A DNA stretch of 64,000 bases, taken from Bacteroidota bacterium. Its GTDB lineage: Bacteria; Bacteroidota; Bacteroidia; B-17B0; Aurantibacillaceae. A program made the translations under genes and the position numbers. The notes under the pieces are model-generated. The model saw only the letters and a list, made by a program, of their open reading frames with translations. It ran no database searches and was not told the DNA's origin. The stretch lies in contig JAFDXR010000008.1 of NCBI GenBank assembly GCA_018267825.1, forward strand, positions 310,001 to 374,000. The letters run 5' to 3'. Positions 2,819 through 41,841 of this stretch are shown here, in pieces (position 1 is the stretch's first letter; the number at the start of each line of letters is the position of its first letter).

Positions 2819-3571
2819 CTATTTACCTCTTTCGAACTTCTCCATCAGTTCGTCTTTTTTATTAGGTGATACATCTATCACAGAGCCATCAGCCATGGTA
2901 AGCTGACCCCCTTTTCCGCGTGTATATTTCACCACATGATCGAGGTTCACAAGATGTGATTTATGAACGCGCAGAAAACCGGACTCTCCCAGCAATTCTT
3001 CATAGAATTTAAGTGTGCGGCAAATCATCATTTTGGATTTGGAAACAAAATGGAAGTCCGTGAAGTTGTCGTTGGCCTTGCAATGTACAATATCACGCAC
3101 CTTTACGACTTCAAACCCATCCTGCAAGGGTAAAACAATCTTACAGTCCTGGCTGTTTCCGCCACGGATATTTTCCAGCAAAACCTTTGTGTGCAATGAC
3201 AGCTGGTTTTTCTGCTTCTGGGTTTTTATCTTATCTACGGCCAGAATCAGCTCGTCGATGCTCACCGGCTTGAGGATATAATAGGCGGCACTGTAATTAA
3301 GTGCCTGAATAGCATAATTACCAAAAGCTGTAACAAACACTGTTTCAAAATCGATTTCACCCACCTGCTCCAGCAGGTCAAAGCCATTGCCCTTCGGCAT
3401 TTCCACATCCAGAAACAGGATATCGGGTTTATGTTTACGGATGGCCTCAATACCTGTGGCAACCGAATCGCCTGTACCAACAACAGTTACATCCGGGCAA
3501 TATTTCGCGATGTAGCCGGCCAGGATTTCGCGGCTCATAGGTTCATCTTCAACAATAACGGCTTTAAGCAT
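2819..3571 (-). CDS. LytTR-family response regulator
   Basis: A 250-residue protein with an N-terminal receiver domain and a C-terminal LytTR DNA-binding domain. The acidic pocket is visible as VEDE (residues 7-10), the phospho-acceptor is Asp55 in FLDVEMP, and the conserved lysine is in YILKPVS near residue 107. The LytTR part (about 145-245) carries the typical VRDIVHCKANDNFTDFH and FLRVHKSHLVNLDHV segments. It overlaps the end of the upstream histidine kinase gene by 8 bp, so the two are translationally coupled and form a cognate pair. Its likely targets are the flanking macroglobulin and VWA genes, which have 21-bp-spaced repeats upstream. Confidence 0.93.
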   Translation of the reverse strand: MLKAVIVEDEPMSREILAGYIAKYCPDVTVVGTGDSVATGIEAIRKHKPDILFLDVEMPKGNGFDLLEQVGEIDFETVFVTAFGNYAIQALNYSAAYYILKPVSIDELILAVDKIKTQKQKNQLSLHTKVLLENIRGGNSQDCKIVLPLQDGFEVVKVRDIVHCKANDNFTDFHFVSKSKMMICRTLKFYEELLGESGFLRVHKSHLVNLDHVVKYTRGKGGQLTMADGSVIDVSPNKKDELMEKFERGK

Positions 3572-29127: not shown

Positions 29128-29156
29128 TTCACTCCCTCTTTTTCGGCATTCATTCC
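29128..29156 (+). promoter_or_regulatory. LytTR-type operator, TTCACTCC / TTCATTCC repeats
   Basis: TTCACTCC (29128-29135) and TTCATTCC (29149-29156) are direct repeats with starts 21 bp apart. CATTTTTG (29187-29194; 7 of 8 to TAnnTTTG) begins 30 nt after the second, and the receptor ATG is 57 bp downstream of the operator. The same layout occurs at 34.95, 35.1 and 41.8 kb. Confidence 0.75.
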
Positions 29157-29212
29157 TGTTGCATTTTACAGGCGAGCACGATATTCCATTTTTGTTCTCA
29201 AATAATCCCGAC

Positions 29213-31654
29213 ATGAAAATGATTTTCACCCGCTGCCTTACCATGATCTTAACACTGATGTATGTTTGCTGTTATGCCCAGCCTGTTTCAAAAAAAGGAA
29301 CAATTCTAAAGGGTTCTGTGACAGATGAAACAAAGGCCCCTGTTCCTTTTTGTATGGTTATTTTATATACGGCAAACGATTCGGCATTGTATAAGGGGGA
29401 AGCCTGTGATGAAAACGGGATTTTTCAAATCAGTGATGTTGTTCCGGGAAAGTATTACCTGGTGGCAAGTATGGTGGGTATGGGACGAGCCATAAAACAA
29501 GACATTATCCTGAATGAACAAAACGCGCTGTGTGATCTTGGAGATATTGTGCTTGCACAGCCTGCCAACATGCTCAGTATGGTTACCGTAACTGCTGATA
29601 AGCCATTTATAGAAAAACAGGTTGATAAAACGGTGGTCAATATTGAAAACAGTATTATTCAAAACAGCGCTCCTGCTACGGATATGCTGGGAAAGCTGCC
29701 AGGCGTGATGATAGATCGTGACGGGAATGTAACGCTGAACGGACGCAGGGGTGTGGTTATTCTCATCGACGGAAAACCGACCGGGCTGAGCGGGCAAAAC
29801 CTCTATAATTATTTGAAAGGTCTGAACACAAATGCCATTCAGAAGGTGGAAATTATCACAAACCCATCCGCCAAATACGATGCCGCGGGAAATGCAGGCG
29901 TAATCAATATTGTGATGAAAAAAAACAGAAGACAGGGGCTTAACGGAACACTGACCAGTAACTACAGCCAGGGCAGGTATACAAATTTCGGACAGGGCTT
30001 TGGTTTGGCATATAAAGACAGATGGTATAATATCTATGCCAATTACACTTACGATTATCGTCACACATTTACAAACCTGGTCCTCAACCGGATGTTTTAT
30101 CAGCAAGGCATTTTAAATGGCGTGTATAAAACAGACAGTTATATTACCGATCTGGCCAACACACATGCACCAAGACTTGGGGCGGACTTTAACCTGTCTT
30201 CAAAAACAAGCCTGTCTGTACTTGCCAATGGGCAGTTCATGCAGGATAATGCATCGGCATACGACAAAACGGATAACCTGGATAAGCAGTTAATGCCGGT
30301 TTATCATTCCATATTTGAAAACAGCAATAAATTCAGCCATTATAATTACAGCATCAACGGGGAGCTTCGTCATCAGTTTGATTCACTTGGGCAGGAACTA
30401 AAAATAAATCTGGATTATGCACATTATTATACCGGTATTGATCAGCAGTTCGCCACACAATATATATTGCCCGATGCCACGATTGTGCCAGGTGACCGGC
30501 TTAACGGAAATCACCACGACAAGCTGTTTCTCTATGCTGTGAAAGGTGATTACAGCAAACCACTGAATCAAAAAGCCACACTCGATGCGGGTTTTAAATG
30601 CAGCTATATAACTCTCTCAAACAACATGCGCTTTTTTAATCCTGCCTATGGTACGGATTATTTAGATACACTCCGCAGCAGCCTGTTTGATTACAACGAA
30701 AATATAAATGCTGCTTATCTTAACCTGAATAAAACATGGTCGAAGCTCACACTGCAGGGCGGTTTGCGCCTGGAGCAAACCCAGGCCAGCGGATATCAGA
30801 AACTGAGCCAAGAGCAATTCAAAAGAAACTACATACAGGTCTTTCCTACGCTTTATGCCGAATATAAGTTCAATGATAAACACGTTGTCAACCTCAACGG
30901 CGGGCGGCGCATAGATCGTCCGGCCTACGACCAGATGAACCCCTACAGGAAGCTGATCAATCCTACAACCTATATGCAGGGAAATCCGCTGTTACTGCCA
31001 CAGCTTGGCTACAATGCCGATCTGTCATACGCTTATAATAATCAATGGTTCCTGACATTGGGGGCGAGTATTACCAAAAATAATATTACAGAAGTTCTGG
31101 TTCAGGATGCTGTCACCAAAACCACACATCAAACGGTGATTAATCTCGACCGCTTTCATTATTACAGTGCCTCCGTGGCGTATGCAAAAAAGATAACAGA
31201 CTGGTGGACGACCAATACCAGCATACTTGGTTATTATGGTATATACAGGGGCGCGGTAAATGGTACCTCACTTAACAAACACATGCCTTCGTTTTACATA
31301 AATACCGGCAATAGTTTTTCCCTGTGTGAAGGGCTCTCTCTTGAGCTTGGTTTTAACTACAGTTATAAAGTATTTTACGGCGTAACGACCATACAGCCCA
31401 TGAACAATCTGTCGTTTGGCATTCAGAAATCCGTTTTGAAAAACAATGGCACTGTTACGTTGAATGTCTCCGATATTTTCTGGCGATCGTATGCACGCGG
31501 GGCTACCGAATTTGGCAGCGTGTCGGAATCCTGGAGTGCAAAACGCGATACGCGTCTCGTGAATATAAGCTTTTCGTATAAGTTCGGAAAAAGTCAGAGT
31601 ACCCTTATAAACAGGGCAACCGGCAGTGATGATGAAAAAAAACGGATTCGTTAA
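29213..31654 (+). CDS. TonB-dependent receptor, outer-membrane beta-barrel family 3
   Basis: An 813-residue outer-membrane receptor-like protein. After a signal peptide (to CYAQ) comes a carboxypeptidase-regulatory-like domain (about 28-105), then a plug-like domain (PATDMLGKLPGVMIDRDGNVT, VEIITNPSAKYDAAGNAGVINI) and a long beta-barrel to the C-terminus. The plug phrase and the carboxypeptidase start match the OMP_b-brl_3 family. A TonB box is not obvious and a paired SusD gene is absent, so the transported ligand is unknown. I chose ATG 29213; an in-frame start at 29096 would cover the operator. Its stop is followed by a terminator shared with the convergent regulator gene. Confidence 0.9.
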   Translation: MKMIFTRCLTMILTLMYVCCYAQPVSKKGTILKGSVTDETKAPVPFCMVILYTANDSALYKGEACDENGIFQISDVVPGKYYLVASMVGMGRAIKQDIILNEQNALCDLGDIVLAQPANMLSMVTVTADKPFIEKQVDKTVVNIENSIIQNSAPATDMLGKLPGVMIDRDGNVTLNGRRGVVILIDGKPTGLSGQNLYNYLKGLNTNAIQKVEIITNPSAKYDAAGNAGVINIVMKKNRRQGLNGTLTSNYSQGRYTNFGQGFGLAYKDRWYNIYANYTYDYRHTFTNLVLNRMFYQQGILNGVYKTDSYITDLANTHAPRLGADFNLSSKTSLSVLANGQFMQDNASAYDKTDNLDKQLMPVYHSIFENSNKFSHYNYSINGELRHQFDSLGQELKINLDYAHYYTGIDQQFATQYILPDATIVPGDRLNGNHHDKLFLYAVKGDYSKPLNQKATLDAGFKCSYITLSNNMRFFNPAYGTDYLDTLRSSLFDYNENINAAYLNLNKTWSKLTLQGGLRLEQTQASGYQKLSQEQFKRNYIQVFPTLYAEYKFNDKHVVNLNGGRRIDRPAYDQMNPYRKLINPTTYMQGNPLLLPQLGYNADLSYAYNNQWFLTLGASITKNNITEVLVQDAVTKTTHQTVINLDRFHYYSASVAYAKKITDWWTTNTSILGYYGIYRGAVNGTSLNKHMPSFYINTGNSFSLCEGLSLELGFNYSYKVFYGVTTIQPMNNLSFGIQKSVLKNNGTVTLNVSDIFWRSYARGATEFGSVSESWSAKRDTRLVNISFSYKFGKSQSTLINRATGSDDEKKRIR

Positions 31655-31674
31655 ATCTATCACTACAGCAGGCT

Positions 31675-31709
31675 TTAAAAAAGCCCGGCATCATCCTGAT
31701 GCCGGGCTT
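31675..31709. terminator. Bidirectional terminator, TonB receptor / LytTR gene
   Basis: AAGCCCGGCATCA and TGATGCCGGGCTT form a 13-bp stem around TCC. On the minus strand a TTTTTT run follows, so it is strongest for the LytTR gene ending at 31715. Confidence 0.88.
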
Positions 31710-31714
31710 TGCTC

Positions 31715-32479
31715 TTAATTATCAAGCCATTTTTTAAAGTCTGTGTATTTATCCTGGCTTACAAATACGTCTTTATCGGTTGGGGGGTTCAGGTTCAGTT
31801 TCAATTTATTAGCGGAGTACTTTGTCATGTTTTCGATACTGGCTGTGGAAACAATGAACTGCCGGTTGATCCTGTAAAACAGTTTTGGGTTAAGCACCCC
31901 GGTGAGTTTATCGAGGGTGAGGTCAATGATGTAATGTTTTCCGGCTTTCGATACGAGAAATGCAAATTTATCTTCCGCAAAAAAATAGGCAACATCCTGT
32001 ATGTCGATGGTGAGGTAACTACTTCCTTCAGAAACCAGAAACCTGGTTTTGTATTGTTCTTCCTTAGGCGTTAGCTGCTCTATAATAGCCCGTATATCTA
32101 CGGTTCCGGTTGAGAAGCCGGATCGGAGTTTATGGAATTTTGTCAGGCTTTGTGAAAGGTCTTCCTGGTTGATTGGCTTGAGGAGATAGTCAATACTGTT
32201 GACCTTAAAGGCCTTGATGGTATACTCATCGAATGCCGTGGTAAAGATAACCGGAGCCTGAATGGGTGCCTGTTCGAAAATGGAAAAGCTCAGGCCATCC
32301 TCCAGATGGATATCCATGAAGATGAGATCCGGTTGAGGGTTTTCAGAAAACCATTTCACGGCCGATTTCACAGAGGGCAGGTGAGTCAGGATTTCGATGT
32401 CTTTATTGCATTTTTTGATTAATGTCTCCAACCGCTTAGCGGCCAGGGATTCGTCTTCAACAATTACTGCTTTTATCAT
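31715..32479 (-). CDS. LytTR-family response regulator
   Basis: A 254-residue regulator. The receiver has VEDE (7-10), the phospho-acceptor Asp56 in IFMDIHLEDG and the conserved lysine in YLLKPIN (about 107). The LytTR DNA-binding domain covers about 150-250 with FYRINRQFIVSTASI. Its gene overlaps the upstream kinase by 4 bp (ATGA). It is the best candidate to bind the 21-bp-spaced TTCACTCC repeats before four neighbouring transcription units, because LytTR proteins bind direct repeats on one face of the helix. Confidence 0.93.
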   Translation of the reverse strand: MIKAVIVEDESLAAKRLETLIKKCNKDIEILTHLPSVKSAVKWFSENPQPDLIFMDIHLEDGLSFSIFEQAPIQAPVIFTTAFDEYTIKAFKVNSIDYLLKPINQEDLSQSLTKFHKLRSGFSTGTVDIRAIIEQLTPKEEQYKTRFLVSEGSSYLTIDIQDVAYFFAEDKFAFLVSKAGKHYIIDLTLDKLTGVLNPKLFYRINRQFIVSTASIENMTKYSANKLKLNLNPPTDKDVFVSQDKYTDFKKWLDN

Positions 32480-34854
32480 GATTGCATGGTCTTTAATAAT
32501 GGTATGCGCGCTATGTAGCTGCTGTTTTCTGTATAAAATTCTGTCGGACGGGCAGTCAGCAGTTTGTAACGGCTGCGGATATTCCTCAGCCCCACTCCTG
32601 TTGAGGGCAGCTGCTGTTCGCGTCGCTGCAGGTTGTTACGCACAATGAGGTATTCGTCGCCTTCGTTGAATATTTCTATTTTCAAAGGTGTTTCGGCCGA
32701 TATAATGTTATGCTTAACCGCATTTTCGATAAGAAGCTGCAGGGTAAGAGGCGCCACATAATATTGCATAACCTGGTCGCTTAAATGAATCTGCACCTGA
32801 AGCTTTTCCTCGAAACGTATTTTTAATAAAAAGGTGAAGGCCTGCACAAAATCCATCTCCGTTTTCAGCAGTACAAGCTCATTGTCTTTTTGTTCGAGCA
32901 AATACCGGTAAGAGCGGGCCAGCTGATCGATGAATTTTTCGGAGAGGTTGGGGTCGATGTGTACCAGTGAAGACAATACATTCAGGCTATTGAAGAGGAA
33001 GTGTGGATTTACCTGATTCTTGAGCGACTCAAACTGAGCCTGCGCAATGCCTTTTTCAATTTCTTCTTTTTCGGCATTCACCCGTTCGGTGATGTCGCGG
33101 TTGCTCCACACGCGGCCTACAACTTTACCGTCGATAATCTGTGGTTGCGAAATGCCCTCGAGCACCCGTTTGTTTTTAAGGTAAGCTACCAGCCGGATGC
33201 GATGGTTCACATTTTCTTCGGAGGTACTGATAATCTGAAATACCTCATCGGCATTTTCTACATTTCGGATCGCATGTTGCAGGGCAATACTCTTCTTCCG
33301 TTCTTTGAGCATCTCATCGGTAAAGAGCCACATGTCTTTAAAGTTCTGATTGTAATACAGAATATTATCGTCAAGGTCGGTCAGCAGAATGCCCTCGGAT
33401 GTGGAGTCAACAATGGCCTTGTTAACGGATAAAGAGCGCTCCGTGCGTTGCTCAGCCTCTCGCCTGAGCATGGATGATATAAGTATTTCCGAGCAGATCT
33501 GTAGCGTAGAAACATCTTCTTCTTTCCAGATTTTATGGTTTTGCACGGAATCAAATCCCATGAATCCATAAATTTTCCCATGCCGGAGCATCGGAATCAG
33601 GAGCACTGATTTTGTCTGATCCGCTTTACAGATGGCTTTAAAATCTTCCCCTTCCGCCGGGATCTGTTCCGTATTTTCGAAATTAATAACAGCATTACCC
33701 TGCACCTGTCCGAACAACCACGATGACGTTTCAACCGGAATACCTGCCTGGTAGAAATTGGAAGCGATGAGGCTGGCAGCTTCGCTGCGCCACTCGTGCA
33801 AACAGTCCCAATGGTTTTTGGCCTCGTTCAGCAGATAAACATACGAACGGTCTACCTCTGCAAAACGCCCGATCTCTTCCAGCATCTGTTTTACAGCGTG
33901 CTCCAGATCGGTACCCAGAAAACGGGTCGACATATCGGTGAGCAGCCTGTAGAGTTCTTTCTGGTGGCGGGTTCTCTCTTCGGCCAGCAGGCGATCTGTA
34001 ATATCGCTGTTGATGGCAATATACCCTTTCAGTTTCGGATTGGAAGAGGCGTTGATCACTTTGGTTTCAATATGCCGGATTGTACCCTCGCGGGTCAGAA
34101 TCTCATAACGCGTACTATAGGTATCGAAACCTTCTTTTACTTTTGTTTCAAACTCCTGTACAACCCGGCTGCGGTTTTCGGGATGGATGAGCGCAAATCC
34201 ACTGCCGAGTTTTCTGACTTCATCGGCTGTATACCCCGTGAGTCCTTTGATAGACGAACTGCAATACAGGAGTTCACCGGATGCACCTATTACCTGTATG
34301 ACATCATGAATGTTTTCGATCAGTGTTTCAAAATATTTCTCTACGGTCTGAGCGATGTCCTTGTCGCGGCGTATGCGCAGATCTCTGAAATAACTGAAGA
34401 GGTTGATGAGTGTGAGGTAAAACTGGAAGATGAAAACACTGATAGCACCATCGAGAAAAAAGGTGGCCAGTGTCATGGATGGTTGATCGGTAAGTGTACG
34501 GGAGTCAATTCCGAATAAAGGATCCATGGCGTATGGCAATCCGAAATCGGCTATAAAGACAACCATATATGTAAATGCAACGCCCGATACCAGCGACACG
34601 ATGATCCGCCGGTATGGTTTCTCGAACCAGGGAAATCGTTTGTCGGTAAGCCTGAACACCAGTCGTGCAGCCTGCCAGAGACCCATCGATAAAAGGCCCG
34701 TAGAAATGCCAAAGTAAAAAAACGTCCAGATTTCTGACTGGCTCAGAATGTAATGATAAAAGCCAAAGAATCCGCCTACCATGGCGGAAGACAGGATTTG
34801 TGTTTTCCAGGATATATCGAACATGATCCGGTCTTCGGTCTTCTCTTTGCTCAT
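32476..34854 (-). CDS. PAS/GAF sensor histidine kinase, LytS type
   Basis: A 792-residue membrane kinase. Four hydrophobic spans (about 18-33, 45-62, 86-105 and 130-150) precede a PAS domain (about 178-290; RYEILTREGTIRHIETKV), a GAF domain (about 310-460) and a second PAS (about 470-590). The kinase part has KNQVNPHFLFNSLNVLSS (phospho-His) and HATPase motifs LLIENAVKHN and TGVGLRNIRSRY. It is the cognate partner of the LytTR regulator, with a 4-bp overlap. A twin-repeat operator (34951-34983) upstream suggests autoregulation. Confidence 0.93.
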   Translation of the reverse strand: MSKEKTEDRIMFDISWKTQILSSAMVGGFFGFYHYILSQSEIWTFFYFGISTGLLSMGLWQAARLVFRLTDKRFPWFEKPYRRIIVSLVSGVAFTYMVVFIADFGLPYAMDPLFGIDSRTLTDQPSMTLATFFLDGAISVFIFQFYLTLINLFSYFRDLRIRRDKDIAQTVEKYFETLIENIHDVIQVIGASGELLYCSSSIKGLTGYTADEVRKLGSGFALIHPENRSRVVQEFETKVKEGFDTYSTRYEILTREGTIRHIETKVINASSNPKLKGYIAINSDITDRLLAEERTRHQKELYRLLTDMSTRFLGTDLEHAVKQMLEEIGRFAEVDRSYVYLLNEAKNHWDCLHEWRSEAASLIASNFYQAGIPVETSSWLFGQVQGNAVINFENTEQIPAEGEDFKAICKADQTKSVLLIPMLRHGKIYGFMGFDSVQNHKIWKEEDVSTLQICSEILISSMLRREAEQRTERSLSVNKAIVDSTSEGILLTDLDDNILYYNQNFKDMWLFTDEMLKERKKSIALQHAIRNVENADEVFQIISTSEENVNHRIRLVAYLKNKRVLEGISQPQIIDGKVVGRVWSNRDITERVNAEKEEIEKGIAQAQFESLKNQVNPHFLFNSLNVLSSLVHIDPNLSEKFIDQLARSYRYLLEQKDNELVLLKTEMDFVQAFTFLLKIRFEEKLQVQIHLSDQVMQYYVAPLTLQLLIENAVKHNIISAETPLKIEIFNEGDEYLIVRNNLQRREQQLPSTGVGLRNIRSRYKLLTARPTEFYTENSSYIARIPLLKTMQS

Positions 34855-34950
34855 GATGCTGAATGTGGTTTTTCTCTGCGCAATTAAAATACAAAAGTAA
34901 TTGCAATCGATCTGAATCTTATCAAACTAAAAATGAGACCCAAATTCCCG

Positions 34951-34983
34951 GGAGTGAATGCCAAAAAAAAGGGAGTGAATGCC
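34951..34983 (-). promoter_or_regulatory. LytTR-type operator before the kinase operon
   Basis: GGAGTGAATGCC occurs at 34951-34962 and 34972-34983, identical 12-mers with a 21-bp period; on the minus strand these read GGCATTCACTCC. TACTTTTG, an exact TAnnTTTG, lies at 34899-34892, 51 nt beyond the operator and so 21 bp further away than at the other three sites. The kinase ATG is at 34854. Confidence 0.75.
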
Positions 34984-35093
34984 CGATATCGGGTACGAGG
35001 AATTATATCCGCCTGATTTTCAACAAAAAACGTCTAATCAATTTATGGCTGCTCCCTGTTATTCCCCGATGCCGGTCCGGCCTCCTTTATTCG

Positions 35094-35125
35094 GCTTTCA
35101 ATCTGCAATTTGGGGCATTCACTCC
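35094..35125 (+). promoter_or_regulatory. LytTR-type operator and promoter of the 35182 gene
   Basis: TTCAATCT (35097-35104) and TTCACTCC (35118-35125), each in the context GGC(T/A), are direct repeats 21 bp apart. TAGTTTTG (35157-35164), an exact TAnnTTTG, begins 31 nt later and the ATG is at 35182. The region 34855-35181 contains nothing else I can support. Confidence 0.72.
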
Positions 35126-35181
35126 GGAAGACTGGCTAACTCCGGGCTTGCAGCTTTAGTTTTGTGGCAAAAAACAAGCCT

Positions 35182-35739
35182 ATGAAAAAACTATTTTTCC
35201 TCATCATCACCGTAGCAGCCGGAAGTCTGGCCGCTCAGCAGGATTCTCTGACCTTTAAAAAAACGTTTGAACTGGAGGTCGACCCTATTGCTTATGCCCT
35301 GAAAGGCTATTCTGTTCATGGCATATACAATCACAATCACTTTCGCTTCGACCTCGGGTTTTATGGTATCGAAACTCCTGGAGAACTTACAGGAAACAAA
35401 GGGTTTACTGTTCGCAACAGTGGCTTCGGACTGAAGGCAAATTACATGTTCCGAAAAGTAAATGGTTTCTATGGTGGCGTGGATCTCGGTTATGGAAAAA
35501 CCATCGCCACTGAAACCGAAAGCAATTTGAAAGATACCGGGCACAACATCAGTGTCGGGACCCACATTGGTTACAGGTTCTTTTTGTTTCCGCGCCAGCA
35601 CAATGCGCTCCACGGATTATACCTGACTCCCTGGGCGGGCATCAGTTATAACTATGCCCACGATGCTATTACACTTGGCAACTATAAAGAAAGCTCCCTG
35701 GGTTATTTTGCCACATTCCATGTAGGCTACAGGTTCTGA
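35182..35739 (+). CDS. Small outer-membrane beta-barrel protein
   Basis: A 185-residue protein with a signal peptide (to LAAQ) and eight or so amphipathic strands with aromatic ends; the last residues (FATFHVGYRF) end in Phe like outer-membrane proteins. No family recognised. It is probably activated by the neighbouring LytTR regulator: its promoter carries the 21-bp-spaced repeats and a perfect TAnnTTTG. It ends before a bidirectional terminator. Confidence 0.8.
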   Translation: MKKLFFLIITVAAGSLAAQQDSLTFKKTFELEVDPIAYALKGYSVHGIYNHNHFRFDLGFYGIETPGELTGNKGFTVRNSGFGLKANYMFRKVNGFYGGVDLGYGKTIATETESNLKDTGHNISVGTHIGYRFFLFPRQHNALHGLYLTPWAGISYNYAHDAITLGNYKESSLGYFATFHVGYRF

Positions 35740-35755
35740 GGGTTTTTTAATAGCA

Positions 35756-35785
35756 CAAAAAGGCGCTTTATGAAGCGCCTTTTTT
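35756..35785. terminator. Bidirectional terminator
   Basis: AAAAAGGCGCTT and GAAGCGCCTTTTTT form a stem with a short TAT loop between the converging 35182 gene and the end of the seven-gene operon. Confidence 0.9.
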
Positions 35786-36231
35786 CAGGATCGTTTGTAA
35801 AATATATAATCGGTAATCAGTGGCTGTATACCGCTTTGTTTCAGTTCGGTGTTTATCTGACCCCTGTGGTAGCCGGAGTGATTGATAACATGAAACAGGA
35901 TGTCGGTCAGGCTGTTGCGAAACGACTCTCCTTTGGTGTTGCTGTACAAAATTTCTTCGTCACCGGGTCTGCTATCCAGTATGGAAACCGATAATTTGTT
36001 TTGTTCACGGTTTATACGTTCGTATTCAGCTAATGGCAGGGGCTCCCAGGGGCCTGCCGGGGGGACTGCTCCCTGCACCCGGCTGTTCCATATTTCATGC
36101 GCCCGCAGAATGTGCGACATAAGCACCTTTGTTTTTTCGGAAAGGGTCGGTTCATGCTCAAGCAGGCGGCCGATCATGGATTGGTTAACGGCTTCATTGT
36201 ATTCAAACAGATTTTTCAGAAAAGTATTCAT
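35785..36231 (-). CDS. DinB-family protein
   Basis: A 148-residue four-helix-bundle protein of the DinB/YfiT superfamily. Candidate metal ligands are His in LMSHILRAHEIW and the pair in HVINHSGYHRGQ, the last being the family signature. DinB-like proteins include thiol S-transferases, but the substrate here is unknown. It is the last gene of the operon that begins with the TonB receptor at 41752; only one base separates it from the GNAT stop. Confidence 0.83.
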   Translation of the reverse strand: MNTFLKNLFEYNEAVNQSMIGRLLEHEPTLSEKTKVLMSHILRAHEIWNSRVQGAVPPAGPWEPLPLAEYERINREQNKLSVSILDSRPGDEEILYSNTKGESFRNSLTDILFHVINHSGYHRGQINTELKQSGIQPLITDYIFYKRS

Positions 36232-36232
36232 G

Positions 36233-37090
36233 CTAATTGGCTGTATAGAGTTTTAATTCGTATTGTTCTATGAATGGTTCCAGGTTGCAGGCCTTCAAAA
36301 AAGCAATCGTGGCTACATCACTGTGGTCGATGTTTATCATGGATAAATCCCGGTTCGTGATGTCTTCCGCTATTTTCATAATTAAAGCGCCTGCATAGCC
36401 CCGTCGCCGGTAAAGCGGATGAACCGCCAGCTGATGCACCCGCCCTGTTAGCGGATTCACAATGGCATAGGCAAGGGGTTTCCCGCCGGGCAGGATTGCG
36501 TAAAATCTCAGCTGGTTACTCACGCGTTGCATGGCCGGAATATCGTTCTGCCAGGTGGGTGCATGATTCCAGAAACCGGGAAGTTCGTCCCAGGGCAACA
36601 CGTTTACCTGTGTTACCGGAATGACCGCAACACCCGGTGCCGATGGTCTTCCTCTAAAACACACGAGTTTACGATGGAGATGGAATCCCAGTTTGGTATA
36701 TACCGACATCGCTTTCAGATTCGGCACAGCCACTTCGAGCTGGTGTGTGAAAAACGACTGGCGGCTCAATGCTTCAATGGCATGCGTGTATAATTGCCCG
36801 GCAATCTGTTTGCCTCTGTGTGCAGGAACAACGCCGGTGCCGGCGTTATACAGCACACCCGGATTGTAATAAGGATCTGATCCGTGGAGGATAAACCCAA
36901 CAAGCTCATCGCCGGCAAATGCTCCAAAGGACAAGGCCATGGAAATGTTTTCACTTTTAATTTTATGCAGCATCTGGTCCGTTGTAAGCTGAAGTTTCAC
37001 GAGGTAATCGCTGAATGCCGCATTAAATGTATCCGTGAGTTGCTCCAGTGAAATATCTTCCAGTGTTACGATATGAAACAGGCGATTCAT
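36233..37090 (-). CDS. Tandem GNAT N-acetyltransferase
   Basis: A 285-residue protein with two GNAT modules. The first acetyl-CoA loop is VVPAHRGKQIAG (about 86-97), the second VHPLYRRRGYAG (about 225-236). Tandem GNATs often keep only one active module; both loops look intact here. The acceptor is unknown. It overlaps the YciI gene by 4 bp (ATGA) and abuts the DinB gene, so it is embedded in the operon. Confidence 0.87.
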   Translation of the reverse strand: MNRLFHIVTLEDISLEQLTDTFNAAFSDYLVKLQLTTDQMLHKIKSENISMALSFGAFAGDELVGFILHGSDPYYNPGVLYNAGTGVVPAHRGKQIAGQLYTHAIEALSRQSFFTHQLEVAVPNLKAMSVYTKLGFHLHRKLVCFRGRPSAPGVAVIPVTQVNVLPWDELPGFWNHAPTWQNDIPAMQRVSNQLRFYAILPGGKPLAYAIVNPLTGRVHQLAVHPLYRRRGYAGALIMKIAEDITNRDLSMINIDHSDVATIAFLKACNLEPFIEQYELKLYTAN

Positions 37091-37359
37091 TTTTGAAATA
37101 TACCTTTATTGGGGTTGAATTCCGTGATTTTATAATCGGCCAGATGATGTATATAAAAAGGATCCTGGCAAAGGGCTTGGTTCAGTGCTTCCTGCCCGTC
37201 GAATGCAGCCAGTATGATGCCTCCTGTACGCGGGTTTTTAGGTCCGGAGGCAATGAAATGGCCCGAGGCATAATATGCATCCAGAAAATGGCGGTGGGCT
37301 TCCAGGTGTGCATCAATCTCAGTAAGGGGAACTTTATAGTTCAATTCTATTATAAACAT
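37087..37359 (-). CDS. YciI family protein
   Basis: A 90-residue protein of the YciI family, recognised by MFIIELNYKVPLTEIDAHLEAHRHFLDAYYASG (given here only as the residues around HLEAHRHFLDAYY) and FIASGPKNPRTGGIILAAFD. The His and Asp of that pattern are the family's proposed catalytic dyad. Members include a muconolactone-like dehydrochlorinase, but the activity here is unknown. It overlaps the GNAT gene and follows the transporter gene by 4 bp. Confidence 0.85.
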   Translation of the reverse strand: MFIIELNYKVPLTEIDAHLEAHRHFLDAYYASGHFIASGPKNPRTGGIILAAFDGQEALNQALCQDPFYIHHLADYKITEFNPNKGIFQK

Positions 37360-37363
37360 AGGT

Positions 37364-38239
37364 TTAATTTTTAAAGCGGTTGGTAATCACCACACCCGAT
37401 ACGATGAGTAAACCTCCTGCCAGTTGTGAGGCATAGAGGGGCTTACCGAGTATGGCAGAAAAAAAGGTTGCAAAGAGCGGAACAAGGTTAATGAAAATAG
37501 CACTGTTGTCGGCGCCGATCTGCTTTACGCCATAGTTCCAGAAATAATACGCCAGCACGGAACCACATATAGCCATAAATGCAATACTGCCAGCGGCCCA
37601 TGCCGAAACAGCCGGCAGATGGCCTCCGGACTCAAACCCCGCGATAAACAGAAACAGTACGGTAGCCGGCAGCGTGGTGAATGCCGTCAGGCTATATACA
37701 TTGATCTCTGATAAATATTTCTTATTGATCACATTGTAGAGGCCAAACGATAAACTCGACGCAATAAGCATGATGTCGCCCGACACAAAGTTAAGATGCA
37801 GAATGGTGTCCAGGCTGCCTCCTGAAATAACACACAGCACACCCGAAAAGCTAAGCAAAATCCCGAGAAGTTGTAACCGGTTGATTTTAGCTGAAAGCAG
37901 CAATACCGACAAAATCAGCGTGAACATCGGGTTAAGGCCCATGATGAGTGCGCCGTTGGTGGCCGATGTACTCCGGAGTCCGATAAACATCATGAGGTTG
38001 TATACAAATACGCCTATAATACCACTGCCAATGAGTATCGGTAATTTCGGACGAATACTCTCCCAGTGAAAATCGCGGCGGCGAAACCATAATACAATCA
38101 CAAGCAAGAGGCCGGCAATAAAAAAGCGCGCTGCCGCTATAAAACCGGGGTTTAAGGTTTCCAGTGCCAGTTTGGCAAAAATAAAATTACCGCCCCAGAA
38201 AAGGGTGGCTATAACGAGTAAGAGGTAAGTCTTTTTCAT
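37364..38239 (-). CDS. DMT-superfamily transporter (EamA family)
   Basis: A 291-residue inner-membrane protein with ten spans in two EamA repeats (start: LLVIATLFWGGNFIFAKLALE). EamA proteins export or exchange amino acids and other metabolites; the substrate here is not predictable. Embedded in the operon between the NAD(P)-binding gene (13 bp) and YciI (4 bp). Confidence 0.87.
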   Translation of the reverse strand: MKKTYLLLVIATLFWGGNFIFAKLALETLNPGFIAAARFFIAGLLLVIVLWFRRRDFHWESIRPKLPILIGSGIIGVFVYNLMMFIGLRSTSATNGALIMGLNPMFTLILSVLLLSAKINRLQLLGILLSFSGVLCVISGGSLDTILHLNFVSGDIMLIASSLSFGLYNVINKKYLSEINVYSLTAFTTLPATVLFLFIAGFESGGHLPAVSAWAAGSIAFMAICGSVLAYYFWNYGVKQIGADNSAIFINLVPLFATFFSAILGKPLYASQLAGGLLIVSGVVITNRFKN

Positions 38240-38252
38240 GATACATGTTGTA

Positions 38253-38882
38253 TTAAAGCCCCCATAAATGAAATGATACCAATGGGTAGTTTCCGCTCCG
38301 AAGCGATAATTCTCTTGAAAACAAGGTCATTTGCTCGATGATGCGGTTTCTCTTCAGGCTGCCGCCATTGAAAAACCGAAAGGGCAATACAGCCATTAAG
38401 GCTATCACTTCACGTGTCAGCCGGTCGTCGTCGCAGGTAACATATACATCCGAACGTATATTTCCTGCCAGCGGTGTATCGAACACGACCCAAAATGTGT
38501 TTTTGAAAATACCCACCACGTGTGTGGATGGCAACAGCCGCTGAATGATTTCCGAGGCGGACTCTCCCTCCGATGTTATCAGTGCATCGAAACGCTCATT
38601 GAATGGTACGTTTATATCAAAGAGAATTTTACCCTTTAATTTCTCGCGGTGGGTACTGATCCATTGAATACAGTCCAGGTATTTGAAGGTTGGAATCAGA
38701 ATATCGGCTTCGAAAATCTGATCCAAAGGTACGATAGAAATATCAGAACCCCACGTGCGGTTTATATCTTCGATCTTTTTTAAATCGCGAGCCGACCATA
38801 CAAAGGGGATCTTGTGTCTGAAGAAGGTTCCGGCCAGGGCTTTTCCCATTCTGCCGGAACCAATAATAGCTATTTTTTTCAT
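38253..38882 (-). CDS. NAD(P)-binding oxidoreductase, F420-dependent-reductase-like
   Basis: A 209-residue Rossmann protein: IAIIGSGRMGKALAGTF (residues 4-20) is a dinucleotide-binding glycine motif, followed by WSARDLKKI, then PLDQIFEADILIPTF. The shape fits the NADP-oxidoreductase coenzyme F420-type family, which also includes relatives that do not use F420. The substrate is unknown. It follows the DUF1569 gene by 17 bp. Confidence 0.78.
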   Translation of the reverse strand: MKKIAIIGSGRMGKALAGTFFRHKIPFVWSARDLKKIEDINRTWGSDISIVPLDQIFEADILIPTFKYLDCIQWISTHREKLKGKILFDINVPFNERFDALITSEGESASEIIQRLLPSTHVVGIFKNTFWVVFDTPLAGNIRSDVYVTCDDDRLTREVIALMAVLPFRFFNGGSLKRNRIIEQMTLFSRELSLRSGNYPLVSFHLWGL

Positions 38883-38899
38883 AAGGACAGGTTGTTTTA

Positions 38900-39355
38900 T
38901 TACACGCCGAACTGGCGCAGGTGATGATCCATGTGTTTATAGGCCGCTATACCCCATTCGCGGGTCGATATGTTTCCGAATGCCGGGTGTGTCAGTGTAA
39001 GTGCGGCGGTTTGTTTCGGAAATTCCCCGACAAGATTTATGAATGCTGCTTGCTGTACCTGAAACTGCGATTGTGGGGCATGGCCCTGAGCATTGTGGCG
39101 GTGATCGGTTGGGCGGTTTTTGGTAAATTTTCCGGCAACATATAAAGCCACTATGCGCAGGGCAAATTGTTTCACTGTGGTACGGTCGCCCGGTTTGCGC
39201 CCCTCTGTCAGGATCTGCGTGTTGCAGAGGTTGCAGTGCAGGAGCATTTCAGTAACCGTCATCTTGCCCCACAGGGCCCTGTGATCAGCGGTTAACTTTG
39301 AAGCCCGCTGTGCCAGCTGATGCGAAGTTTCCGCATCCAATACATTATGTTTCAT
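38900..39355 (-). CDS. DUF1569 (DinB-like) protein
   Basis: A 151-residue protein recognised as DUF1569 from LTADHRALWGKMTVTEMLLHC and WGIAAYKHMDHHLRQFGV, the latter holding the metal-ligand His residues of the DinB fold. It follows the TonB receptor by 18 bp and is the second gene of the operon. Function unknown; it is the second DinB-superfamily protein in this one operon. Confidence 0.82.
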   Translation of the reverse strand: MKHNVLDAETSHQLAQRASKLTADHRALWGKMTVTEMLLHCNLCNTQILTEGRKPGDRTTVKQFALRIVALYVAGKFTKNRPTDHRHNAQGHAPQSQFQVQQAAFINLVGEFPKQTAALTLTHPAFGNISTREWGIAAYKHMDHHLRQFGV

Positions 39356-39373
39356 GGTTGGTTGGAGTTACTG

Positions 39374-41752
39374 TTAAAAATTGATGCGGTAAATAAAGTT
39401 TGGTAAAAAGCCGGTCTGATACGCGGTGTTTACCTGATTGGTTTTCTTGTTATACCCCATCGCATAAACGTTTTTATAATTGGTGATATTCTGGAAGTCG
39501 ATGAAAAACGATTGTGAAAAATGGTGTTTCACATTATTGAGGCGATAGCCGACTTTCACATCCCAGCGGTAGTAATTCGGATAACGTTGCGAGTATGAAT
39601 AGGCATCTCCCATAAGCACCTGCTTTTGAGCCAGCTGTGAGGCGGCCAGGTCAACCGGGGTATAATACTTGCCGCCTGCACTGGTCAGCTTGGTGTCGAT
39701 GGTTATCACATTGCGTTGTGCTTTACCTACTTTAATTTCTTTGCCTGCCAGGAGATTCAATGTATACTTTCCGTTGAATGCGGTATTACGCTCCAGGTTG
39801 TCGCTTGCCTTATATTTAGAGTCGTAAAGCGAAGCCGTAAATAATCCGTAATAGCCTTTCGAAAAGAATTTCTCGAGTGTGAGTTCAACACCGTAATTGT
39901 GCCCGGAGCCACTGCCCGAAAGATCTGTTTTTTTGGTTGGTGCAAAAGAAGCTCCTTCGTTTATAGATGCATAACTGCTTGCATAGGCCGTAACCGGAAT
40001 CTGACTCAGGTACTGATAATACACTTCGGTTTTTATGCGCCAGTCGGCGGCCGGTAAAAAGTCGTAGCCCACTACGAAATGCTGGCTTCTGAGAAAGTCC
40101 AGATTTTTATTTGTTTCGGTATATGTGCCGTCGGCATTGTATTGTTTATTAAAATAAATACTGAGTGGCTGAGTCTGTTCGTGCCAGCCATAGCCAAACG
40201 AGAGTGCGTGTCTGCCGGTGAGCTGGTATTTTGCAGCCAGTCGGGGCTCCACGGCTGTTTTACCGTTTAAGGTCAGGTATTGAGTATGCAATCCGCCGGT
40301 AAGCGACAGTTTTTCGGAAAATACGTATTTCCCCTGGGCATAGGCCTGCAGCAGCATGGTATTGTCATGGCTATCCCAAAGGGTTCTCCAGCCATCGTTG
40401 CCTTGCACTTCGGCATCGTAAAGATTCAGGCTCATCAGCTCGCCGATCACTCCGGCCTTGTAGTTGAAGCGGGCATTTACCTTTGAGTTGAAGGAGGTAT
40501 TGAAAGAATAATTCACCTGTGATGTACGCAGGTTCTCTGCTGCCCCGGCCACATCGCCCTGGTACTTATTAATGGTATCCTGTTTGTTGCTGTTTTCGCT
40601 GATGGTAGCACCGATCACGGTTTTGAAATATGATTTATCATTTACTTTGATGAAATGGCTGAGGCCCACCAGCCCGATACGGCTTTTAAAATACATGTCG
40701 CGGGTAGGATCGGCGTAAATATCAGAGGAGTCTATTTTATTGTGCAGAAAATCGATGTTGCTGATGCCTCCCAGGCCGAAAAGACTGAGTTTGCCGAATC
40801 GGGATGCGCCACCGTTTATTTTGAATGACAGGTCCTGGTATTTGGGCGTTGCATTGGTACCCATTTTCATTCCCATATCCTGTGCAAGTCCTGTAAACGA
40901 GTAGCGGTAAGCAAAGAGGTAGGAAGATCCTTTTTCGCGGTTGATGGGTCCTTCGGCCATGGCTTCAAGGCCCGTGAACATTCCCATCTGGATGGCATAC
41001 TCGCGTTTATCGCTGTTTCCGTTTCTGAATCCGAGATCAAACACACCGGCTGTGGCATTGCCGTATTCGGGAGCAAATGCAGAAGTCATAAAGTCGGAGT
41101 TTTTAAGCACATTGGTGTTGAGTGCACTTACGGGGCCTCCTGTGGTACCCATGGTCGAAAAATGGTTTGGGTTGGGAATATTCAGTCCCTCTATACGCCA
41201 CAGTATACCGGTAGGTGAATTTCCTCTTACAACAATATCGTTGCGCGAATCGTTTGGCGCCGATACGCCTGCAAAGTTTGCCACGAGGCGCGAAGGGTCG
41301 CCATGCCCGCCCGAATAGCGGTTTACCTCCTCCATATTAAATGAGCGTGCCGAAACAGTGCTCATATCGTTAACCGTCTCGTTTTTCTTGGTAGCACTTA
41401 CAGTCACTTCCTGCAACTCCGAAACCGCCTCTTCCATTTCCAGTTCCAGGTCTACTTCTTTTCCTACGGTAACCAGCACATTGGGTAACACAATCTCTTT
41501 GTAACCCATGTATGCAGCCTTTATGTCGTAGCGCCCTACGGGCACCTGTGCAATTTTAAATTTACCGTCCACATCACTGCTTGTTCCCAGCAGCGGACTG
41601 GTGTTCATAATGGTGATGGTTACTCCGGGCAATTCGGTTTTGGATACCTTATCCGTAACATGTCCTTTTACAGTTTGAAAAGCGGTCTGAGCCACTGTGA
41701 GCATTGCCGGCATCAGCAAAGCAAGTGTTGTAATGCATTTGAAGGTTTTCAT
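39374..41752 (-). CDS. TonB-dependent receptor
   Basis: A 792-residue outer-membrane receptor. A signal peptide (to TVAQ) is followed by a CarboxypepD_reg-like domain (about 28-115), a plug-like domain (FNMEEVNRYSGGHGDPSRLVANFAGV is cited in part: GGHGDPSRLVANFAGV, near 143-158) and a long beta-barrel ending KTGFLPNFIYRINF-like (last residues FIYRINF). No SusD partner is present. It is the first gene of an operon continuing with six small genes, all with gaps of 18 bp or less or overlapping. A LytTR-type operator and a TATGTTTG element sit upstream, so its expression is probably controlled by the system at 31715-34854. Confidence 0.9.
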   Translation of the reverse strand: MKTFKCITTLALLMPAMLTVAQTAFQTVKGHVTDKVSKTELPGVTITIMNTSPLLGTSSDVDGKFKIAQVPVGRYDIKAAYMGYKEIVLPNVLVTVGKEVDLELEMEEAVSELQEVTVSATKKNETVNDMSTVSARSFNMEEVNRYSGGHGDPSRLVANFAGVSAPNDSRNDIVVRGNSPTGILWRIEGLNIPNPNHFSTMGTTGGPVSALNTNVLKNSDFMTSAFAPEYGNATAGVFDLGFRNGNSDKREYAIQMGMFTGLEAMAEGPINREKGSSYLFAYRYSFTGLAQDMGMKMGTNATPKYQDLSFKINGGASRFGKLSLFGLGGISNIDFLHNKIDSSDIYADPTRDMYFKSRIGLVGLSHFIKVNDKSYFKTVIGATISENSNKQDTINKYQGDVAGAAENLRTSQVNYSFNTSFNSKVNARFNYKAGVIGELMSLNLYDAEVQGNDGWRTLWDSHDNTMLLQAYAQGKYVFSEKLSLTGGLHTQYLTLNGKTAVEPRLAAKYQLTGRHALSFGYGWHEQTQPLSIYFNKQYNADGTYTETNKNLDFLRSQHFVVGYDFLPAADWRIKTEVYYQYLSQIPVTAYASSYASINEGASFAPTKKTDLSGSGSGHNYGVELTLEKFFSKGYYGLFTASLYDSKYKASDNLERNTAFNGKYTLNLLAGKEIKVGKAQRNVITIDTKLTSAGGKYYTPVDLAASQLAQKQVLMGDAYSYSQRYPNYYRWDVKVGYRLNNVKHHFSQSFFIDFQNITNYKNVYAMGYNKKTNQVNTAYQTGFLPNFIYRINF

Positions 41753-41812
41753 GGTTTTGTTTGGTTTGATGGCGCAAACATAGCATGAGCCTCCTGCCCG
41801 GTAAACCGATAC

Positions 41813-41841
41813 GGAGTGAATCAGGAAAAAGATGGAGTGAA
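41813..41841 (-). promoter_or_regulatory. LytTR-type operator of the seven-gene operon
   Basis: On the minus strand TTCACTCC (41841-41834) and TTCACTCC (41820-41813) are perfect 8-bp direct repeats with a 21-bp period. TATGTTTG, an exact TAnnTTTG, lies at 41782-41775, 30 nt on, and the receptor ATG at 41752. Confidence 0.77.

Follow-up and report, generated by a model that had tools for sequence, protein, structure and literature searches.

The question raised by this locus is which protein binds four pairs of short direct repeats that surround the gene of a LytTR response regulator, and which genes would thereby come under its control. The repeats lie in a stretch of 64,000 nucleotides from a Bacteroidota bacterium (the window), and a sequence-only reading of it had taken them as the operators of a LytTR regulon with a period of exactly 21 bp.

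The LytTR locus and its paired repeats

The following genes, described by their Pfam domains, are found at the locus:

29213–31654, + strand: outer-membrane receptor-like protein, 813 aa (CarboxypepD_reg, Plug, OMP_b-brl_3)
31715–32479, - strand: LytTR response regulator, 254 aa (Response_reg and LytTR), the predicted binder of all four operators
32476–34854, - strand: sensor histidine kinase, 792 aa (PAS, GAF, PAS and His_kinase PF06580)
35182–35739, + strand: small predicted outer-membrane beta-barrel protein, 185 aa (OMP_b-brl, E = 0.0013, under the curated cut-off)
35785–41752, - strand: seven-gene receptor operon (receptor at 39374–41752, DUF1569, F420_oxidored-like, EamA transporter, YCII, GNAT and DinB)

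The regulator scores as a LytTR response regulator (PF00072, 52 bits, cut-off 30.2; PF04397, 61 bits, cut-off 22.6) and its phospho-acceptor, Asp56, is invariant across 14 aligned sequences. The kinase belongs to the family of LytTR partners (PF06580, 76.8 bits, cut-off 25.2) with the H-box NPHFLFN, and since the end of its gene overlaps the start of the regulator gene the two form one operon. A structure model of the barrel protein, of low confidence (pLDDT 60), contains a signal-like helix and beta strands. In the receptor operon the genes are separated by at most 18 bp, and the protein encoded at its head, 39374–41752, contains CarboxypepD_reg and a weak Plug domain. A second gene with a LytTR domain, one of the 24 LytTR genes of the genome, is situated within the window near 2834–3115.

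Direct reading of the sequence confirmed the four repeat pairs, all of them with a distance of 21 bp from start to start:

29128–29156, + strand: operator 1, TTCACTCC-N13-TTCATTCC at 29128/29149, upstream of the OMP_b-brl_3/Plug receptor gene, 0 mismatches to the TTCAYTCC pair
34951–34983, - strand: operator 2, two 12-bp copies of GGCATTCACTCC with N9 between them, containing TTCACTCC/TTCACTCC at 34979/34958, upstream of the kinase-regulator operon
35097–35125, + strand: operator 3, TTCAATCT-N13-TTCACTCC at 35097/35118, with a degenerate distal half, in front of the small barrel gene
41813–41841, - strand: operator 4, TTCACTCC-N13-TTCACTCC at 41841/41820, upstream of the seven-gene receptor operon

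When read as 12-bp units from the distal half-site, operators 1, 3 and 4 become GGGGTTCACTCC-N9-GGCATTCATTCC, GGCTTTCAATCT-N9-GGCATTCACTCC and CCGGTTCACTCC-N9-CTGATTCACTCC, respectively. LytTR operators are described as two direct repeats of 9–11 nt with 11–13 nt between them (PMC4847170), and the pairs agree with this rule as 12-bp copies 9 nt apart or as 8-bp cores 13 nt apart.

Downstream of each pair a putative -7 element was identified, the distance being counted from the proximal half-site:

29187–29194, + strand: -7-like element CATTTTTG, 30 nt past operator 1, one mismatch to TAnnTTTG
34892–34899, - strand: -7 element TACTTTTG, 51 nt past operator 2
35157–35164, + strand: -7 element TAGTTTTG, 31 nt past operator 3
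41775–41782, - strand: -7 element TATGTTTG, 30 nt past operator 4

The housekeeping -7 element of Bacteroidota, TAnnTTTG, is thus exact at three of the four operators and has one mismatch at operator 1; these promoters are predicted from sequence only. The distances bear out the earlier claim of such an element 30–31 nt past three of the sites and 51 nt (30 plus 21) past the one at the kinase operon.

Occurrence of the repeats in the genome

In the 4.82-Mb genome there are three exact matches to TTCAYTCC-N13-TTCAYTCC, all within this 13-kb locus, while the reversed control pattern does not occur at all; the remaining site of the window, operator 3, has two mismatches to the pair. Allowing one mismatch adds two matches to the three exact ones, making five against none for the reversed pattern, and allowing two gives 24 against 5 for the control. 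Inspection of all 24 revealed a -7 element at 30, 31 or 51 nt only at the four sites of the window, and most of the other matches fall within ORFs. In the window itself, eight matches with up to three mismatches were found where 2.2 were expected, a number reached in none of 100 shuffles. A composite pattern of repeat, repeat and -7 element, again with up to three mismatches, returned five places in the whole genome and none in the control, four of them in or overlapping sites of the locus and one at a sigma factor gene on contig C4. At one of the sites with a single mismatch (C30:69393) no gene follows on the same strand, and the match was put down to chance.

On contig C4 (265908–265957) the half-sites TTCACTCC, TTCACTCT and TTCACTCG follow each other at 21-bp steps upstream of a gene for an ECF sigma factor. 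The triple array has the form TTCACTC(C/T/G), and the sigma gene is followed by genes for an unknown protein of 603 aa and an FGE-sulfatase-like one. No -7 element was found at 30 or 51 nt at this site, and no orthologue of the sigma factor was detected in MAG.356, the relative described below. Judged by its sequence, the array is a candidate, and only a candidate, for a fifth target of the regulator.

The sequence-only reading had expected a genome scan to yield a limited set of envelope genes. The set is indeed limited and almost wholly local, but its members may not all be envelope-related; apart from its receptor the seven-gene operon holds six genes, for a transporter and for enzymes with a predicted cytoplasmic or inner-membrane location, and the candidate fifth target encodes a sigma factor. 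Among the 24 LytTR genes of the genome it is one, the regulator at 31715, around which the exact operators cluster; it combines a receiver domain carrying the phospho-acceptor Asp with a LytTR domain, and its proposed place as the cognate regulator among the sites is supported.

The repeats in related bacteria

The closest named regulator found, in the relative MAG.356, is 67% identical to that of the window. The kinase (50% identical) and the barrel protein (53%) are also present, and here too the barrel gene and the kinase-regulator operon are transcribed divergently. The MAG.356 orthologues of kinase, barrel protein and receptor all have half-sites of this type spaced by 21 bp. At the kinase promoter the arrangement is TTCACTCC-N13-TTCACTCC-N51-TAATTTTG, so that the unusual distance of 51 nt (30 plus 21) is kept, and the barrel promoter contains a degenerate triple array with 21-bp steps, the last half-site of which lies 30 nt before TAAGTTTG. 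The third promoter belongs to the orthologue of the receptor at the head of the receptor operon (43% identical, on another contig) and reads TTCATTCC-N13-TTCATGCG, followed by CATTTTTG at 51 nt. This site emerged from a blind pattern scan, and only later did a protein search find the start of the orthologue just downstream. In MAG.356 this receptor heads a receptor-kinase-LytTR operon, whereas in the window it precedes the six enzyme and transporter genes, and the MAG.356 site may belong to the paralogous LytTR pair in its operon. Operator 1 is not independently conserved, because no orthologue of the receptor at 29213 was detected in MAG.356. When searching for a conserved third half-site at the 51-nt sites none was found: CTCATTTT in the window matches at 5/8 positions, a level reached by 4% of 8-mers, and MAG.356 has none.

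Two exact matches of the pattern in MAG.356 (C21:34293/34419) are part of an unrelated intergenic ccatgaaggaatgaagg repeat array and resemble operators by chance. In a further genome (G223) an orthologue of the barrel gene is located near a LytTR pair, yet no operator of this kind was seen there.

The comparison was extended to 80 loci with regulators 45–67% identical, including Spirosoma, Siphonobacter, Flavisolibacter and Saprospiraceae. Some of these loci are orthologous (e.g. several from Spirosoma), and part of the counts is therefore not independent. In the intergenic DNA of the 80 loci, repeats of any 9-mer peak strongly at distance 21 (66 segments against about 20). Fixed CATTCR pairs peak at the same spacing (15 against 0–1 at most distances), and with the fixed consensus GNCATTCRNYC 51 promoter-proximal pairs were found at spacing 21 compared with 0–7 at each of ten other spacings from 16 to 26. 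A -7 element (at least 5/6) follows at 30/31 nt in 38 of these 51 pairs, in 28 loci. This consensus was fixed and untrained; it was used instead of an iterated PWM, which drifted to noise. When the whole class was scanned with a rigid combination of CATTCR pair and -7 element, matches were enriched but few (14, control 2); the pattern was too strict and missed this genome's own sites. The related loci also have a T-rich stretch 22–26 nt upstream of the -7 element, which suggests a putative -33 element just after the proximal half-site.

By these counts the geometry of 21 bp and 30/31 nt is general for related LytTR loci. The earlier reading of direct repeats two turns apart as LytTR sites gains from this generality, from the clustering of the sites at this regulator and from their recurrence at three orthologous promoters of MAG.356. 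That the pairs would instead be chance matches or a dispersed repeat, unconnected with any regulator, might be argued from the shortness of the half-sites, one of them degenerate, but such repeats should hardly be so scarce in the genome and absent from the control, be kept in MAG.356 although the flanking DNA has diverged, or peak so sharply in other loci at a spacing of 21 and a -7 offset of 30/31, and we regard this explanation as extremely improbable.

Predicted regulation and comparison with known systems

The four paired repeats are very probably the operators of the LytTR regulator encoded at 31715–32479, which is predicted to activate its own kinase operon, the units of two receptor-type outer-membrane proteins and the small barrel gene. 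The sensor kinase (32476–34854) would phosphorylate the regulator. In this form the regulator would occupy both half-sites (consensus GGCATTCAYTCC), which are two turns of the helix apart, with the bound copies next to each other on the same DNA face just upstream of the -33 region. From there it would activate transcription from the Bacteroidota -7 element located 30/31 nt downstream or, two turns further, at 51 nt. The predicted targets are its own kinase-regulator operon, in a positive autoregulation, the receptor gene at 29213, the barrel gene at 35182 and the seven-gene operon 41752–35785, making up a compact and almost wholly local regulon. One sensor kinase would in this way be coupled both to its own production and to particular receptors of the outer membrane.

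The sites could be real LytTR sites and still serve other LytTR paralogues, in part or entirely, as a shared node instead of a private regulon of the regulator at 31715. The genome encodes 24 LytTR domains, with another in the window near 2834–3115, relatives use similar CATTCR half-sites, and one such site in MAG.356 precedes a receptor-kinase-LytTR operon. All three exact sites of the genome adjoin this one regulator, however, and the orthologous kinase-regulator promoter retains its site, which makes a shared node unlikely. LytTR proteins are able to activate or repress, and the regulator might accordingly repress the four promoters, but the sites are situated upstream of the core promoter and not over it, at a fixed, helix-phased distance of 30 or 51 nt that is typical of activators, and repression appears decidedly improbable. 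Activation by the regulator at 31715 is the reading kept here.

Direct-repeat operators of LytTR proteins are a known kind. In the open-licence literature searched, neither an operator for any Bacteroidota LytTR protein nor a fixed Bacteroidota promoter geometry was found described, and relative to these papers what appears to be new is a Bacteroidota case whose regulon is defined and whose promoter geometry is fixed across the lineage. This branch of Bacteroidota LytTR proteins probably uses one fixed promoter code, in which GGCATTCRNYC half-sites 21 bp apart are followed by a -7 element exactly 30/31 (or 51) nt downstream; the core of the half-site is common to YpdB of E. coli. For many LytTR systems that are uncharacterised, the regulon could in that case be deduced straight from the DNA. 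Genomes like this one carry about two dozen LytTR regulators, and a verified operator of fixed geometry would allow their targets to be predicted by pattern search; since the same layout is found in many related bacteria, it may serve as a guide to the genes under the control of such regulators.

The LytTR operators of the AgrA/ComE/VirR type in Firmicutes are likewise composed of two direct repeats fitting the 9–11/11–13 nt rule. By their general description they differ in half-sites, hosts and sensors. By score the nearest NCBIfam model to the window regulator is that of BtsS/BtsR (YehU/YehT) of E. coli, and BtsR also binds paired direct repeats, but the half-site in the yjiY oligonucleotide is a different one, ACCGCTTA/ACCACTCA-like, and an identification of the regulator as BtsR was rejected, the score being 90 bits where the curated cut-off is 246.

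A further close parallel is YpdA/YpdB (PyrS/PyrR), where again a LytTR response regulator is combined with 21-bp direct repeats. The target promoter of YpdB in E. coli, yhjX, contains GGCATTTCAT repeats (PMC4847170). In MG1655 it reads GTCATTCATTCC-N9-GCATTTCATTCC-N9-GCATTTCATGCC, i.e. three half-sites, TTCATTCC/TTCATTCC/TTCATGCC, at 21-bp steps, so that a third TTCATTCC is located in phase upstream of the two repeats named in that paper. Over its length YpdB shares no more than 25% identity with the regulator of the window, and the likeness is therefore one of operator and not of orthology. The E. coli target is moreover a transporter, with a promoter of another sigma-factor system, and the window kinase carries PAS and GAF domains with no LytS-type sensor domain found by Pfam. 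The yhjX half-site TTCATTCC matches TTCAYTCC, which suggests that LytTR half-site recognition is alike in Bacteroidota and E. coli.
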